DNA from: Calothrix sp. PCC 7507
Lineage (GTDB): Bacteria > Cyanobacteriota > Cyanobacteriia > Cyanobacteriales > Nostocaceae
Assembly (NCBI RefSeq): GCF_000316575.1
Contig: NC_019682.1
Location: 6,559,501 to 6,623,500 of the forward strand
Length of the DNA stretch: 64,000 nt
Direction: 5' to 3'
In this document: positions 42,598-48,002 of the stretch, one piece after another
How the letters are laid out: each line of letters opens with the position of its first letter
Position numbering within the stretch: the stretch's first letter is position 1
Program-made: the position numbers and the translations under genes
Notes under the pieces: model-generated
The model's input: the letters and a program-made list of their open reading frames with translations, nothing else
The model's database searches: none
What the model was told of the DNA's origin: nothing

Positions 42598-43716
42598 TTA
42601 CTTACTTGCTGATTTCAACAACTCTTGATTACCTTTCACTTGCAAAAACTTAGTTTTTGACTCATCCAATACGGTTGGTTTAACTGGAAGGTAGCCCAGA
42701 TGAGAAATTTCTTCGCTCACATAGGTCAAGTAATAGTTAATAAACCCTTCTAATTCCGGTCGCTTCCGAATCGCTTTGGCATCTGCATAAATGTACAAAG
42801 GGCGAGTTAAAGGATATCCTGGTAAGAAAGGGTCTACTTTATCAATAGCGATCGCCTTTAACTTTTCGCGGTTTTCTTGATAGGAGCCATACTCTAAAAA
42901 GCCAACCATGTAGGGATTAATTAAAGCCTCTGAGTGTAACTGCTCTACAAAGTCATAAGATATTGTATTGGGAGCATTAGTAAGTTGGCTGACGTTCCTC
43001 CCCTTGAGAATAGCTTGAGCAAACAAGTCAACTGCTCCCCCAGTACCAGCCCCCGCTGGAATAATGCGTTTAATCAGCTCTTTTGGCCATTTGGGATTGA
43101 CATCTGACCATTTTTGCACAGTGAATACCCTTGCCAGTTCGTCGCGTGTCAGAGTGTTGGGGACGAAATTATTTTGAGAACTAACGACAATAGTCACTGC
43201 ATCGGTAGCAATTTGAAAGCCGATAGGCTGAACACCTGACTTAGCACAGGCGGCTAACTCCTGACTGGTAATCGGGCGAACTGCATTGACAATATCTATT
43301 GTTTTATCCTGGCAAAATAGTTTGAAGCCAACAACCGTATCAATACCAGCGAGATTAATCTTGCTAGGATACCCGTCTTGGATAAAGCGTTGAGCAATCG
43401 CCTCACTAATTGGCAAAACCACCTGAGTTCCCGATATTGCTATTGTTCCCTCTAGTTCTAGGGGGTTAACCTCTGGAAGCACAATGCCCTGTTTAGCGGA
43501 GTCTTGGGTTGAGAGTGGTTTAACTAATTTCCTCTCGACTTTCTGAATACCTAAGTTTTCTTTTGCAGATTTGTCCGCACTAGCTTGATTATCAATATTT
43601 GCTTTTGAGGTTTTTGATGGACCAGTGCAAGCTATTAATAGTAAAACTGTACTGAGCAAAAATAAGTAATTTCGGAAATTTTTAGCTCTAGTTATCCTGA
43701 TCCTAATTAATGACAT
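42598..43716 (-). CDS. PstS-like phosphate-type substrate-binding lipoprotein
   Basis: The 372-residue precursor has a lipoprotein signal ending LLLIAC, with Cys30 as the lipidation site, then a polar linker (about 31-70). The binding-protein domain begins EGTIAISGTQVVLPISEAIA. It includes IDIVNAVRPITSQE (about 138) and IPAGAGTGGAVDLFAQAI (about 205), the positions where phosphate is gripped in PstS. These loops differ from canonical SGAGSTFP and RSDGSGTT, so specificity for phosphate is uncertain. The gene starts only 3 nt after the stop of the MscS gene, implying cotranscription with a channel rather than with pstCAB. Confidence 0.83.
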   Translation of the reverse strand: MSLIRIRITRAKNFRNYLFLLSTVLLLIACTGPSKTSKANIDNQASADKSAKENLGIQKVERKLVKPLSTQDSAKQGIVLPEVNPLELEGTIAISGTQVVLPISEAIAQRFIQDGYPSKINLAGIDTVVGFKLFCQDKTIDIVNAVRPITSQELAACAKSGVQPIGFQIATDAVTIVVSSQNNFVPNTLTRDELARVFTVQKWSDVNPKWPKELIKRIIPAGAGTGGAVDLFAQAILKGRNVSQLTNAPNTISYDFVEQLHSEALINPYMVGFLEYGSYQENREKLKAIAIDKVDPFLPGYPLTRPLYIYADAKAIRKRPELEGFINYYLTYVSEEISHLGYLPVKPTVLDESKTKFLQVKGNQELLKSASK

Positions 43717-43719
43717 ATA

Positions 43720-45210
43720 CTATCTTCTCACTTGCACTCGGCGACCATTTTTATTATTCAGCGGATGAACATCCTCCTTAATTCCTTTAGCAAGTCGAAC
43801 CATCTTTTTCCGTTCTTCGATATACTGAAGAATCTCTGAAGCAAATTTGTTGTTAGACTCTATCGCTTCGGTAATCTCTTTGGCTGGAATCACTACAACC
43901 TCGACATCTTCATTAGCGATCGCTGTAACTGGGCTGACCTCTCCTGGGAAGATAGCCATTTCACCAAATACTTCGTTAAGTTCCAAATCATCTACTATCT
44001 TGCGGTTCCCTTGCTCATCTTTTAGATAAGCCTGTCCCGTGCCCTTAAAGATAATATAAATTCCCTCGTCTTCTTTACCTTCCTGAATAATTAACTCACC
44101 CTGACCGTAGGCTTTAAATCTAGCCCGGTGGGCCAGTTTTTCAATTTGATTATCATTGAGCGTTAAGAAATATGGGAGTGATCGCAAATAAGTTACCAAT
44201 TCCTGTTGGCGGTTCTCGACTACTTGGGGAATCCGGCTTGGTATTCCTTTTTGGGTATCGATATCGTACTGCACTTGAATCGGATAAGGCATAGTAAAGC
44301 CATAACGTTTGGTTATATAGTAAAGTCGAAATTTGAGTTCCGCAGAAACTATCCAATCTTTTTCCGGCACTACTTTATAGGAAAGCTTGTAAGTGATACT
44401 GAAGTCTTCATAGGAACTAACTAGAGCAGGATCTTTGGCTTCGATCAGATCTATACCCTCCGTCAAGGTATTTAGGGCTGAAATCACTTCACTAGGAGAA
44501 TCGTCATAAGAAAATGAGGCGTAAATACTTTTCCAGATTCCTTTCTGACCGTAATTGATAATGCTTGCCTTCGACAACACCCCATTGGGAACGTTGAATG
44601 TCATCGCCGGATTTTTCATAGTGACTGACCACCAGTTTTGTTCAATTACCCGTCCCTGCTTTCCATCTAACTCAATCCAATCACCTGTTTTGAAAGGTTT
44701 GGCAGCTAGCAGCAGTAATCCTGACACCAGGTTACTGAGGGTATCTTGCAACGCGAGGGCAATTACCGCTGAAGCTACCCCTACACTGGAACCCAACCCA
44801 GTAAAATTTATACTCCAAACTCCATTGAGAATGTGATAGCCAATGGCAAAGATAACCACACCCCTAGCTACCTGAAAAAACAGGTTAGGTACATGAATTT
44901 GCCATTTGATCGGTTGTTTTTTTGTGGTCAACAGAGCATTGATTAAAGAAATTCCCGCCACAATCACGGCAACCCAAGTTAACGTTTCCACAAAACGTGC
45001 CCAGGAATCTTTGCCAGCAACGCTTAAAAGCTGTCGCATGACCAAAATTACGGCTAAGGGAGGTAACACATACTCCCGTACCTGATGCAGAGCAACTGCT
45101 AAGGGGTGCTGCTGACGTTCCAATCTTGAGGCCGCTTCACCAAGCAATATACCGAACAATGGAAATCCCAGCCCCAAAAGTAATATCCATCCCAGAAATG
45201 ATTTATCCAT
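43720..45210 (-). CDS. MscS-type channel with C-terminal cyclic-nucleotide-binding-like domain
   Basis: The 496-residue protein has four or five membrane spans, the last being the pore-lining helix GSSVGVASAVIALALQDTLS (about residues 140-159). The MscS beta domain (KPFKTGDWIELDGKQGRVIE, about 171-190) and cytoplasmic alpha/beta domain follow. Residues of about 345-465 form a cNMP-binding fold, with GELIIQEGKEDEGIYIIFKG and VFGEMAIFPGEV (Glu417). The arginine that holds the cyclic phosphate in CAP/PKA is absent (SPVTAIA, about 426-432). It may respond to membrane tension plus a non-canonical ligand. Confidence 0.87.
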   Translation of the reverse strand: MDKSFLGWILLLGLGFPLFGILLGEAASRLERQQHPLAVALHQVREYVLPPLAVILVMRQLLSVAGKDSWARFVETLTWVAVIVAGISLINALLTTKKQPIKWQIHVPNLFFQVARGVVIFAIGYHILNGVWSINFTGLGSSVGVASAVIALALQDTLSNLVSGLLLLAAKPFKTGDWIELDGKQGRVIEQNWWSVTMKNPAMTFNVPNGVLSKASIINYGQKGIWKSIYASFSYDDSPSEVISALNTLTEGIDLIEAKDPALVSSYEDFSITYKLSYKVVPEKDWIVSAELKFRLYYITKRYGFTMPYPIQVQYDIDTQKGIPSRIPQVVENRQQELVTYLRSLPYFLTLNDNQIEKLAHRARFKAYGQGELIIQEGKEDEGIYIIFKGTGQAYLKDEQGNRKIVDDLELNEVFGEMAIFPGEVSPVTAIANEDVEVVVIPAKEITEAIESNNKFASEILQYIEERKKMVRLAKGIKEDVHPLNNKNGRRVQVRR

Positions 45211-45401: not shown

Positions 45402-48002
45402 TCAAACACCTATGTTTGACAACTCAAGTTCTGCTGCTGCTTCTTTCATAATTTCGCTCAGGAATGTGTAAGCTTCTTCCCATGCTTTTCGCACTGGCGT
45501 AGTAAACTCTTCACCCAGTCCTTGAGCTAACGTCCACAGCAACGCTTCGCCGACAATATCGTAGTATTCGGCCTTGACACCATAACCCGCATGGTCGCGA
45601 CCCAACTTTTGGACGGCGGGGATAATCTGATCTGGCTGACGCAAACCTTCCACAGCGAGAGCAAGCGTAGTCATTAGCTTACGCTCCTGTTCTTTCATAT
45701 TCCCCTTAAATAGAGAACGAAAAGAAGGTTCTAATTCAAACAGTCGGTTGTAGAATAGTTCAGCAGCTTGACCAGCGATGGGTTTAACTTTAGCAAAGGA
45801 TGACTGAACCAACTCCACTTGACTTAGAACTAACTTCCTGGTGGTTACTAGCGTCCAGGTTTCTACTTCACCCAGTCCTGGAATTTTCACGACCGGGTTT
45901 TGGATGAATGTGTAGCTATCGGCTATGCGATCGTACACACTCCCAGTCAGTAAAATATAGTTCAAATCAGCTTTATTCTGGAGACTGCTTGTTATATATG
46001 CTGTTTCTCCCCAAATACTGTACCCAAGTCGCTGTGTTCCTACTACCCCTGCTGTCACAGAACCAGCATGAATGCTGATGCGTAAAGCCAAGGCAGAATT
46101 GTAATTAATATTCAGACGCTGGATAATCTCTAACATGGCTAGGGCAAAATCAACAGTTCGCTTGCTGTGGTCAAATCTGGCTTCGCTAAGTCCACACACT
46201 GCCACATAGCTTGTACTCAGGGAGTTCTGTCTTTCCAACCCGTAGCGTTCTACCGAGTTATCGAATTCATCAAATAGCTCGGTGAGCAATTTTGTGATTT
46301 CTGGCGGTGACAGGCGTTTGTTCAACTCAGCAATCCCAGCCAGATGAGCATTGAGAATGGTTACTTGCTTGAAATTTTCTGCAATGGATAGCTCTCCTTG
46401 TTTCCTGCGTTCGGCGATCGCCCTGGGTAGTATATTCTGCAAGAGAATATCGTTCTCCTGCTTCTTGGTTTCCAGCTCTTCCTCAGTTTGGTGTAATTTG
46501 TTCGCCACCTTTTTGAACTCTTTTGCCAATTCCCCAAACTCGTCAAGGGATTTCACCTCAACGTCTACATCCATTTCCCCCGCACTCAGTTTCCGGGCGC
46601 TATCAGTCAAAAGACGCAGGGGAGAAGTAAAAATCCTTGCCGCAATTGCCCCTAAAAAAGCTGTTCCTAGAAGGAAAATCACCGCCGCAATCAACAAAAT
46701 TACCTGTAACGTGTAAAGCGGACGATAAGCTTCCCCTACCTCCATCTCTGCTATAATCCCCCAATTTAACCCGTTCAACTTCAAAGGAGTGTAGGAACTC
46801 AATACTTCTGCCCCTCGATAGTTGCGGTCTACCATCATCCCTTGTTGCCCTTCTAAGGCGGCTTTGGCGGCTGAACTATTGATTTTCTGTAAGCTAATGG
46901 TAGTGTTAAAGTTCTCCATCAGTTGGAGAGTTCTCTTGTCAGTCCCCGTGTAACGAACAACGGTTTCATATTTTTTGGGGTCTTCAACCCAAAAACGGGA
47001 TGTCGAACGCATTAGGAAATCGGTTCCGACTAAATAAGCTTCCCCCGTTTTCTGCAAACCACTGCCTTCCCAATTATTTTTCCGGCTAATAGCTTGGTCG
47101 ATCTTTTCAATAGGAATTTGCACTGCCAAGATGCCAATCATGTTAGAACCGCTATAAATGGGCGTTCCCAGGAAAGCAGCCGGAGCATTATAAGAAGCAC
47201 GGTAAGGTTTGAAATCAACAACCTGAATGCTACCTTGAGTCGGATTTGTCTGGACTGCCTGCACCAAATCCTTTAGTGCATTCTGGGAGTCAAAACTCTG
47301 TAGTGGATTCGTGGCAAAATCTGATTCTTTAAAATAGGAATAGACGATATCTCCTGTTTTATGATTAATCAAAAATAAATCGTAATAACCGAATTGTTTG
47401 ATAATTCCTGCAAAGAATTTTTGATATTTGGTATGAGCTTTGGTGTAAGCGCTGCCATCACCAGCATCAAGGAGATGGTCTTTTTTGCCGACTGGATTGG
47501 GATTAGAAGCAATGTAGTGATACTGAAGATAGCGAGCCGCTTGTCCGAGGGGCTGATAGACACTGGGAATCACTGCTTCAGGAGATAGATTCTTTTGCAA
47601 GCGAGGAAAAAATTGTTCGGTGTAGTAAGCATCCAATGCTGTATCCCATTCGGGGGGAATAAAGTTGCGATCCAGGTTGCGGAAACCCCCATTCAATTCC
47701 ACCATCGCTTTCACGATGTTGCCATCTGCCGCCAGCATCCCCACTTGGTTATTCAAATTTTCAAAGTACGACTCAAACTGTTCGGCTTTGGTTGTACGTA
47801 TACCGGAAAGTTGCTCGGCGATTTTGCTTCTGAGGGTAGCTTGTGTTTGATACCAACCAATCCCACTCACTACTACTACAGAACCAAGGCTAACTCCTAG
47901 GAGCAAGGCTTGTAGCTTCGATTTAATTGTCCAGTCACCCAGTTTTAGACGAATTAGGGAGCCATCACGCAACTTCCGCAAACCTTTTTGGGGATTTAAC
48001 AT
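45402..48002 (-). CDS. transmembrane receptor: dCache + HAMP + degenerate class III cyclase domain + C-terminal globin
   Basis: The 866-residue protein has a membrane span (about 31-51), an extracytoplasmic dCache-like sensor (about 55-430), a second span (about 432-457), HAMP (about 455-508), a signalling helix (about 505-530), a cyclase-like domain (about 545-720) and a globin (about 727-858). In the cyclase domain the two metal aspartates are replaced (Asn551 and Thr597), and the transition-state Asn and Arg positions read Tyr669 and Ser673. The globin keeps the proximal His804 (GRDHAGYGVKAEYYDIVGE), Gln772 at distal E7 and Tyr751 at B10, so haem binding is likely. It is upstream of the MscS and PstS-like genes. 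Confidence 0.85.
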   Translation of the reverse strand: MLNPQKGLRKLRDGSLIRLKLGDWTIKSKLQALLLGVSLGSVVVVSGIGWYQTQATLRSKIAEQLSGIRTTKAEQFESYFENLNNQVGMLAADGNIVKAMVELNGGFRNLDRNFIPPEWDTALDAYYTEQFFPRLQKNLSPEAVIPSVYQPLGQAARYLQYHYIASNPNPVGKKDHLLDAGDGSAYTKAHTKYQKFFAGIIKQFGYYDLFLINHKTGDIVYSYFKESDFATNPLQSFDSQNALKDLVQAVQTNPTQGSIQVVDFKPYRASYNAPAAFLGTPIYSGSNMIGILAVQIPIEKIDQAISRKNNWEGSGLQKTGEAYLVGTDFLMRSTSRFWVEDPKKYETVVRYTGTDKRTLQLMENFNTTISLQKINSSAAKAALEGQQGMMVDRNYRGAEVLSSYTPLKLNGLNWGIIAEMEVGEAYRPLYTLQVILLIAAVIFLLGTAFLGAIAARIFTSPLRLLTDSARKLSAGEMDVDVEVKSLDEFGELAKEFKKVANKLHQTEEELETKKQENDILLQNILPRAIAERRKQGELSIAENFKQVTILNAHLAGIAELNKRLSPPEITKLLTELFDEFDNSVERYGLERQNSLSTSYVAVCGLSEARFDHSKRTVDFALAMLEIIQRLNINYNSALALRISIHAGSVTAGVVGTQRLGYSIWGETAYITSSLQNKADLNYILLTGSVYDRIADSYTFIQNPVVKIPGLGEVETWTLVTTRKLVLSQVELVQSSFAKVKPIAGQAAELFYNRLFELEPSFRSLFKGNMKEQERKLMTTLALAVEGLRQPDQIIPAVQKLGRDHAGYGVKAEYYDIVGEALLWTLAQGLGEEFTTPVRKAWEEAYTFLSEIMKEAAAELELSNIGV

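Follow-up and report, generated by a model that had tools for sequence, protein, structure and literature searches.

The bCNG channels of the MscS family (Caldwell et al. 2010 and Malcolm et al. 2012, as cited in PMC4560390 and PMC13312541) combine an MscS pore with a C-terminal cyclic-nucleotide-binding (CNB) domain, and knowledge of mechanosensitive channels in cyanobacteria is called limited in PMC13312541. In globin-coupled sensors the globin is N-terminal according to PMC1457004, in agreement with an earlier note on this DNA, and PMC12755159 names HemAC-Lm, the haem adenylate cyclase from Leishmania. PDB entries 7yz9 and 7yzi, of mycobacterial origin, represent the class III membrane cyclases with a HAMP domain, and PDB entry 3wfw represents a globin fused to a Roadblock/LC7 domain.

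The locus analyzed here lies in the window, by which we mean the whole 64,000-nucleotide stretch of the Calothrix sp. PCC 7507 genome that was studied, and consists of a receptor gene with a channel gene and a PstS-like gene downstream on the same strand. The partner channel resembles the bCNG channels in having an MscS domain followed by a CNB domain, and differs from cAMP-binding CNB domains in that its CNB lacks the Arg; it is, moreover, paired with a receptor of the dCache-HAMP-cyclase type. The receptor shares its cyclase fold and linker with 7yz9/7yzi. A dCache-HAMP-cyclase layout is also common to two rhizobial proteins (L142 and L143; 33.5% and 32.9% identity over about 77–80% of the query), which unlike the receptor keep the full catalytic set DKDDNR and carry no globin, and which have no channel among their annotated neighbours within 7 kb, where the gene tables are incomplete. 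Like the globin-coupled sensors, the receptor joins a globin to a signalling domain, with the globin placed at the C-terminus (residues 727–858 of 866) and not at the N-terminus as in the sensor lineage. The globin of 3wfw is related to that of the receptor and is attached to a different partner domain. HemAC-Lm, a soluble, active cyclase with an N-terminal globin, resembles the receptor in having globin and cyclase in one protein; the receptor differs in being a membrane protein with a degenerate cyclase. Going by titles and the opening lines of abstracts, no open-access paper among the matches listed describes either the dCache-HAMP-pseudocyclase-globin fusion or the receptor-channel pairing. 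We propose, with a probability of roughly one half, that the protein is a membrane receptor in which the cyclase domain now serves as a non-catalytic relay that regulates the partner MscS-CNB channel by contact.

The receptor is encoded by a single open frame of 866 residues on the minus strand (45402–48002), which also carries all window features given below; the plus strand of the same interval contains stops throughout. The order dCache, HAMP, cyclase-like domain and globin, read earlier from the frame itself, was confirmed by Pfam, with dCache_1 under its cut-off. The dCache-like extracytoplasmic sensor region (residues 214–418, 46749–47363) scores 38.2 bits against a cut-off of 45, and is thus supported without a formal call. 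Hydrophobic 19-residue windows that begin at residues 29–33 and 425–442 flank this region, in agreement with two putative membrane segments around it. The HAMP domain (residues 454–505, 46488–46643; 39.6 bits, cut-off 25) leads into a linker ahead of the cyclase fold (residues 491–540, 46383–46532), presumably of the signalling-helix/HNOBA-like kind, for which the HNOBA match at 491–532 reaches 22.9 bits, slightly under the cut-off of 23.4. The degenerate class III cyclase domain (residues 541–718, 45849–46382) passes the Guanylate_cyc profile (PF00211) with 110.2 bits (cut-off 21.9, E 1.2e-31), and the class III fold is therefore present by homology. Within the C-terminal globin (45429–45824), the Globin profile (PF00042) matches residues 750–849 with 51.8 bits (cut-off 22, E 1.4e-13). 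The Calothrix genome (7,023,215 bases in one contig) has nine Guanylate_cyc hits including the receptor, and a single PF00042 globin, the receptor's own. Structure predictions of the cytoplasmic part (8-sequence alignment, mean pLDDT 35.2) and of the channel (7-sequence alignment, mean pLDDT 49.0) were too poor for use.

We compared the former active site with 7yz9 and seven paralogs from the same genome. In the alignment, His553 and Thr597 occupy the metal positions, and Asn593, Glu666, Tyr669 and Ser673 replace the substrate Lys, the adenine Asp, and the transition-state Asn and Arg, respectively, where the positions are named by their roles in class III cyclases. The earlier note had assigned the first metal Asp to Asn551, which the alignment rules out in favor of His553, two residues away; Asp is nevertheless absent from both metal positions, and the assignments to Thr597, Tyr669 and Ser673 stand. 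The window protein accordingly lacks the metal Asp pair and the Asn and Arg of an active class III adenylate/guanylate cyclase. In the fused set of 13 proteins (the window protein, seven from L010–L016 and five from L051–L055, with L017 holding the rest of the Desmonostoc gene), Asp is found at neither metal position and the transition-state Asn in no protein, and this extends to orthologs of 42% and 34% identity. The Arg survives in four of the 13 (L011, L015, L016 and L053) and its loss is thus variable among them, and the claim that all four key positions are changed holds for the window protein without extending to the whole set. From the lost catalysis-critical residues, we infer that the receptor does not synthesize cAMP.

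A former active site may also have kept a use of its own: it could still bind ATP or another nucleotide as an occupancy sensor, or the domain could dimerize with an intact cyclase and tune its cAMP output. The pocket residues do look non-random, with Glu at 666 in 12/13 fused proteins, Tyr at 669 in 11/13, and His or Asn at 553 in 12/13, even though the orthologs are for the most part closely related, and the genome offers eight other Guanylate_cyc hits, seven of which were aligned and all of which keep both metal Asp. On the other hand, the receptor retains neither metal Asp, nor the substrate Lys, nor the Asn, and another cyclase gene lies near only one of the 12 ortholog loci within the stretches examined (a CHASE2-cyclase in Argonema, L015). 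In class III cyclase dimers each site is built from both subunits, and pairing with a degenerate subunit would consequently spoil both sites. We therefore consider nucleotide sensing or heterodimerization unlikely, and retain the contact relay as the preferred reading. The top-scoring cyclase of the genome (L001, contig position 5845947–5846444) carries Ile in place of the transition-state Arg.

Is the receptor gene simply decaying and without function? Its catalytic residues are lost, and among its relatives the L110 receptor is broken up into two frames, with no more than a globin stub left in L107. This is contradicted by the substitution pattern: dN/dS (Nei-Gojobori) is 0.11–0.32 in every domain over seven ortholog pairs, with a synonymous difference (pS) of up to 0.62, and 0.15–0.32 in the cyclase domain alone. 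Furthermore, ten of the 12 orthologs found besides the window protein in a search for the same fusion in other cyanobacteria have full-length frames, and the other two (L012 and L054) are interrupted by contig ends. Decay thus has next to no probability. Taken together with the absence of catalytic residues across the 13 fused proteins, the dN/dS values indicate that the receptor is a maintained pseudo-cyclase under purifying selection, as judged from sequence comparison, and the earlier view of the cyclase domain as degenerate is upheld.

Downstream of the receptor lie the channel gene (43720–45210), whose PF00924 and PF00027 matches exceed their cut-offs and give the bCNG layout, with the CNB domain at residues 366–453 (43852–44115), and the third gene of the cassette (42598–43716), which encodes a PstS-like substrate-binding protein of 372 residues. 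The latter passes PBP_like_2 (74.2 bits, cut-off 27) and falls short of the PstS model TIGR02136 (131.6 bits against a cut-off of 206.6); its N-terminus was judged lipobox-like by eye. A channel gene is found near the receptor and on the same strand in the window and in all 12 ortholog loci, the L055 contig holding only the CNB part, and the PBP gene is found in 11/12, being missing from L054. In the 388 sampled genomes, the PBP profile finds ten copies in nine genomes at 266 bits or more, with all remaining hits at 171 bits or less. The cassette varies in detail. In Lyngbya (L014), a free globin 76% identical to the fused globin of the window is encoded between receptor and channel (L014:10773-11198); in L055, the channel gene precedes the receptor and two further genes stand ahead of the PBP gene. 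Four related cassette receptors (L108 to L111) carry no globin; all four have lost the first Asp and one (L108) keeps the second. In L107 (8738–12430), channel and lipoprotein occur without a receptor, and a LysR gene and the globin stub occupy its place. The L055, L110 and L111 cassettes, which have either no globin or one without the proximal His, also contain a di-haem cytochrome c peroxidase (CCP_MauG) and a DAHL protein; L108 and L109 have no globin and yet no peroxidase or DAHL genes between the cassette genes, so the link between peroxidase and globin loss is loose. Promoter-like sites (8, against 11.0 with s.d. 3.6 in shuffles) and terminator-like sites (7, against 5.6 with s.d. 2.5) show no excess; no terminator-like site lies between the three cassette genes, which is weak evidence.

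The cassette forms a single branch within a broader pairing of cyclases with channels in cyanobacteria. Channel profile hits at E 1e-40 or better occur in 93 of the 388 genomes, at 106 places of which 10 are cassettes. The surroundings were examined for 47 of the other 96, mostly top-ranked, and an adjacent co-directional cyclase gene was found at 43 of these; dCache-HAMP similarity is present in 42 of the 43 neighboring cyclases, and the remaining one (L185) is a cyclase fragment at a contig end. The dCache-HAMP-cyclase/MscS-CNB pairing may thereby give such channels a partner in cyanobacteria. Counting the window and the cassettes and omitting L016 for its inserted gene, 59 channels are paired with a cyclase within reach. 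In these pairs, both metal Asp and the Asn are kept by 20 cyclases, among which L144 alone also keeps the Arg; over all 59, the Arg is kept in four. The adjacency of the genes suggests that the receptor may control the channel directly, in place of making cAMP. The three genes might instead have been co-inherited for a common purpose such as osmotic or redox stress, with the receptor signalling to some other partner. Order and spacing do vary (the cyclase precedes the channel in 56/59 pairs and follows it in 3/59, with gaps from overlap to 960 bp), and another gene separates the receptor from the channel in L016 and the channel from the PBP gene in L010. Against this, the pairing persists over deep divergence with cyclases in all states of decay, and we regard a different partner as distinctly unlikely. 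A conformational or protein-binding output, as put forward previously, fits these observations, with the adjoining MscS-CNB channel as the candidate partner.

An Arg that holds the cyclic phosphate is a trait of cAMP-binding CNB domains. We located this column by means of two Arg-bearing CNB domains of the Calothrix genome, and for the window channel, where the position is Ser426, the match is supported by alignment with solved kinases. Ser is found here in 63 of 65 channels and Thr in the other two, Arg in none, and five rhizobial MscS-CNB channels also lack Arg at the aligned position; hence the loss belongs to the channel family and not to the dead-cyclase branch. The idea that Arg-to-Ser marks the dead-cyclase lineage was dropped, since Ser or Thr occurs in every channel, and Ser at each of the 20 loci where the partner cyclase has both metal Asp. 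The loss may still be compatible with ligand binding. In the CNB domains of trypanosomatid PKA, which bind nucleosides, Glu replaces Ala and the Arg is lost too (PMC10959531); a domain of this type is not indicated here, as the channel motif FGEMA keeps the Ala by our own matching of positions.

To place the cassette within the pairing, a receptor tree of 52 rows was built with the catalytic columns removed; fragments L054, L185 and L188, distant paralogs and six near-identical rows were omitted, and L016 was not in the set. The branch of the window comprises 22 rows (support 100/100), every one of which has lost the first Asp, and all 15 rows with a PBP gene cluster inside it (87/86), so that the PBP requires a single change. 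The fused globin requires at least two changes on the tree (one gain with losses, or two gains), with L055 on a long branch, and the first Asp at least seven across the whole tree. A separate quick tree agrees on the main branches. Downstream of the degenerate cyclase-channel pair in L147, a gene (L147:9675-11714) matches glutaminase and ankyrin-type models in profile searches on that locus, and genes of similar size, grouped with it, lie downstream of degenerate pairs in L148 and L149.

As the earlier note had stated, the globin retains Tyr751, Gln772 and His804; these correspond to positions B10, E7 and F8 and align with the Tyr, Gln and His of globins 3s1i and 3wfw. The set is kept in 12/13 fused proteins, and with the profile match and the proximal His, it points to a globin that probably binds haem. 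The exception is L055, the most divergent fused member, which has Tyr, Val and Tyr at the positions of 751, 772 and 804 and hence neither proximal His nor Gln-E7. Together with the four globin-less receptors, this indicates that haem sensing cannot be ascribed to every member of the wider family; the proposal that a haem signal is read inside the cell thus agrees with the pocket residues of 12/13 fused proteins and does not carry over to the family as a whole. The closest globins are of the flavohaemoprotein type and from Methylacidiphilum, and the best solved relative is 3wfw (99.7 bits). The top curated model is the globin part of an NO-inducible flavohaemoprotein (70.4 bits, far under the whole-protein cut-off of 432), which, along with the Tyr-Gln-His set shared with 3s1i and 3wfw, would suit an enzyme, either an NO dioxygenase or an O2/NO scavenger tethered at the membrane. 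Profile searches detected no reductase domain in the receptor, and regulatory inputs are usually laid out in this way, fused to a HAMP/cyclase stalk; an enzymatic role is very unlikely in our judgment, and the relay model continues to treat the globin as a sensor.

Globins also occur at other channel loci. A separate, same-strand tandem-globin gene lies 187 bp from the channel in L144 and 143 bp from the cyclase in L145; the two are sister rows, and perhaps reflect one event. In two cyanobacterial MscS channels (L028:163-1908 and L032:178-1911), a fused C-terminal globin occupies the place that the CNB domain takes in the bCNG type. These globins join the tandem-globin branch, apart from the fused receptor globins, in a quick tree with many weak forks. 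Tandem globins without such a channel alongside were found at three loci (L146, L152 and L153). The pattern is suggestive of globins reaching the cyclase/MscS-channel machinery by several routes and points to haem control of MscS-type channels, a subject on which no paper appears among the matches listed, by title and start of abstract.

Based on these observations, the relay could work as follows. An extracytoplasmic signal, perhaps presented by the PstS-like lipoprotein, would be sensed by the dCache region, while the globin would read O2, NO or redox state in the cytoplasm through its haem; both inputs would be integrated in the HAMP/cyclase-fold stalk, which as its output would touch and so regulate the MscS-CNB channel encoded alongside. 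From an ancestral pair in which a cyclase makes cAMP and cAMP gates the channel, this lineage may have kept the parts and dropped the messenger. The model draws on the conserved neighborhood, the wider pairing, the lost Asp and Asn, the purifying selection, and the globins found elsewhere at the same machinery. Of its steps, the loss of catalytic residues, selection and the gene partnership are read from sequence, while physical coupling to the channel, channel gating and the role of the lipoprotein are conjectured from them. Several points count against it: the L107 cassette without a receptor, the L055 globin without a proximal His, the four globin-less receptors, the CNB Arg loss that is not tied to a dead cyclase, and the tandem globins of L146, L152 and L153 without a channel.

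A broader evolutionary reading, which we offer tentatively and at somewhat less than even odds, is that: (i) the cassette is a messenger-free descendant of a cyclic-nucleotide circuit that acts through receptor-channel contact, with the globin rendering the channel responsive to haem ligand or redox state; (ii) cyanobacteria hold the steps of the transition, from nearly intact to fully dead cyclases; and (iii) two separate globin lineages were recruited to MscS-type channels. It would provide a testable case, with graded natural intermediates in one phylum, of how a circuit of enzyme, messenger and channel could shed the messenger while its wiring stays in place.

The fused form occurs in at least six of the 388 sampled cyanobacterial genomes, Calothrix included (G000, G339, G089, G365, G141 and G003), and in seven further genomes of a one-genome-per-species collection, where the search reaches close relatives only. 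Between the window and Tychonema (L010), G339 and G089, the synonymous difference is 0.32–0.51 for the receptor and 0.35–0.42 for the channel, against 0.79–0.83 for rpoB (about 1000 codons); for Cylindrospermum (L011), the values are 0.35, 0.27 and 0.55, respectively. G141 does not follow this low-divergence pattern, with 0.80 for the receptor and 0.78 for the channel against 0.83 for rpoB. Since receptor and channel diverge less than rpoB at synonymous sites, the close cassettes have very likely moved horizontally between cyanobacterial lineages. Beside two cassettes (L011:5506-7515 and L052:4277-6301) lies an NADPH-oxidase-like gene, for which Pfam on L011 gives EF-hands together with ferric reductase and FAD/NAD domains, and a gene of similar start and size (L152:11348-13357) is found beside a tandem-globin gene.
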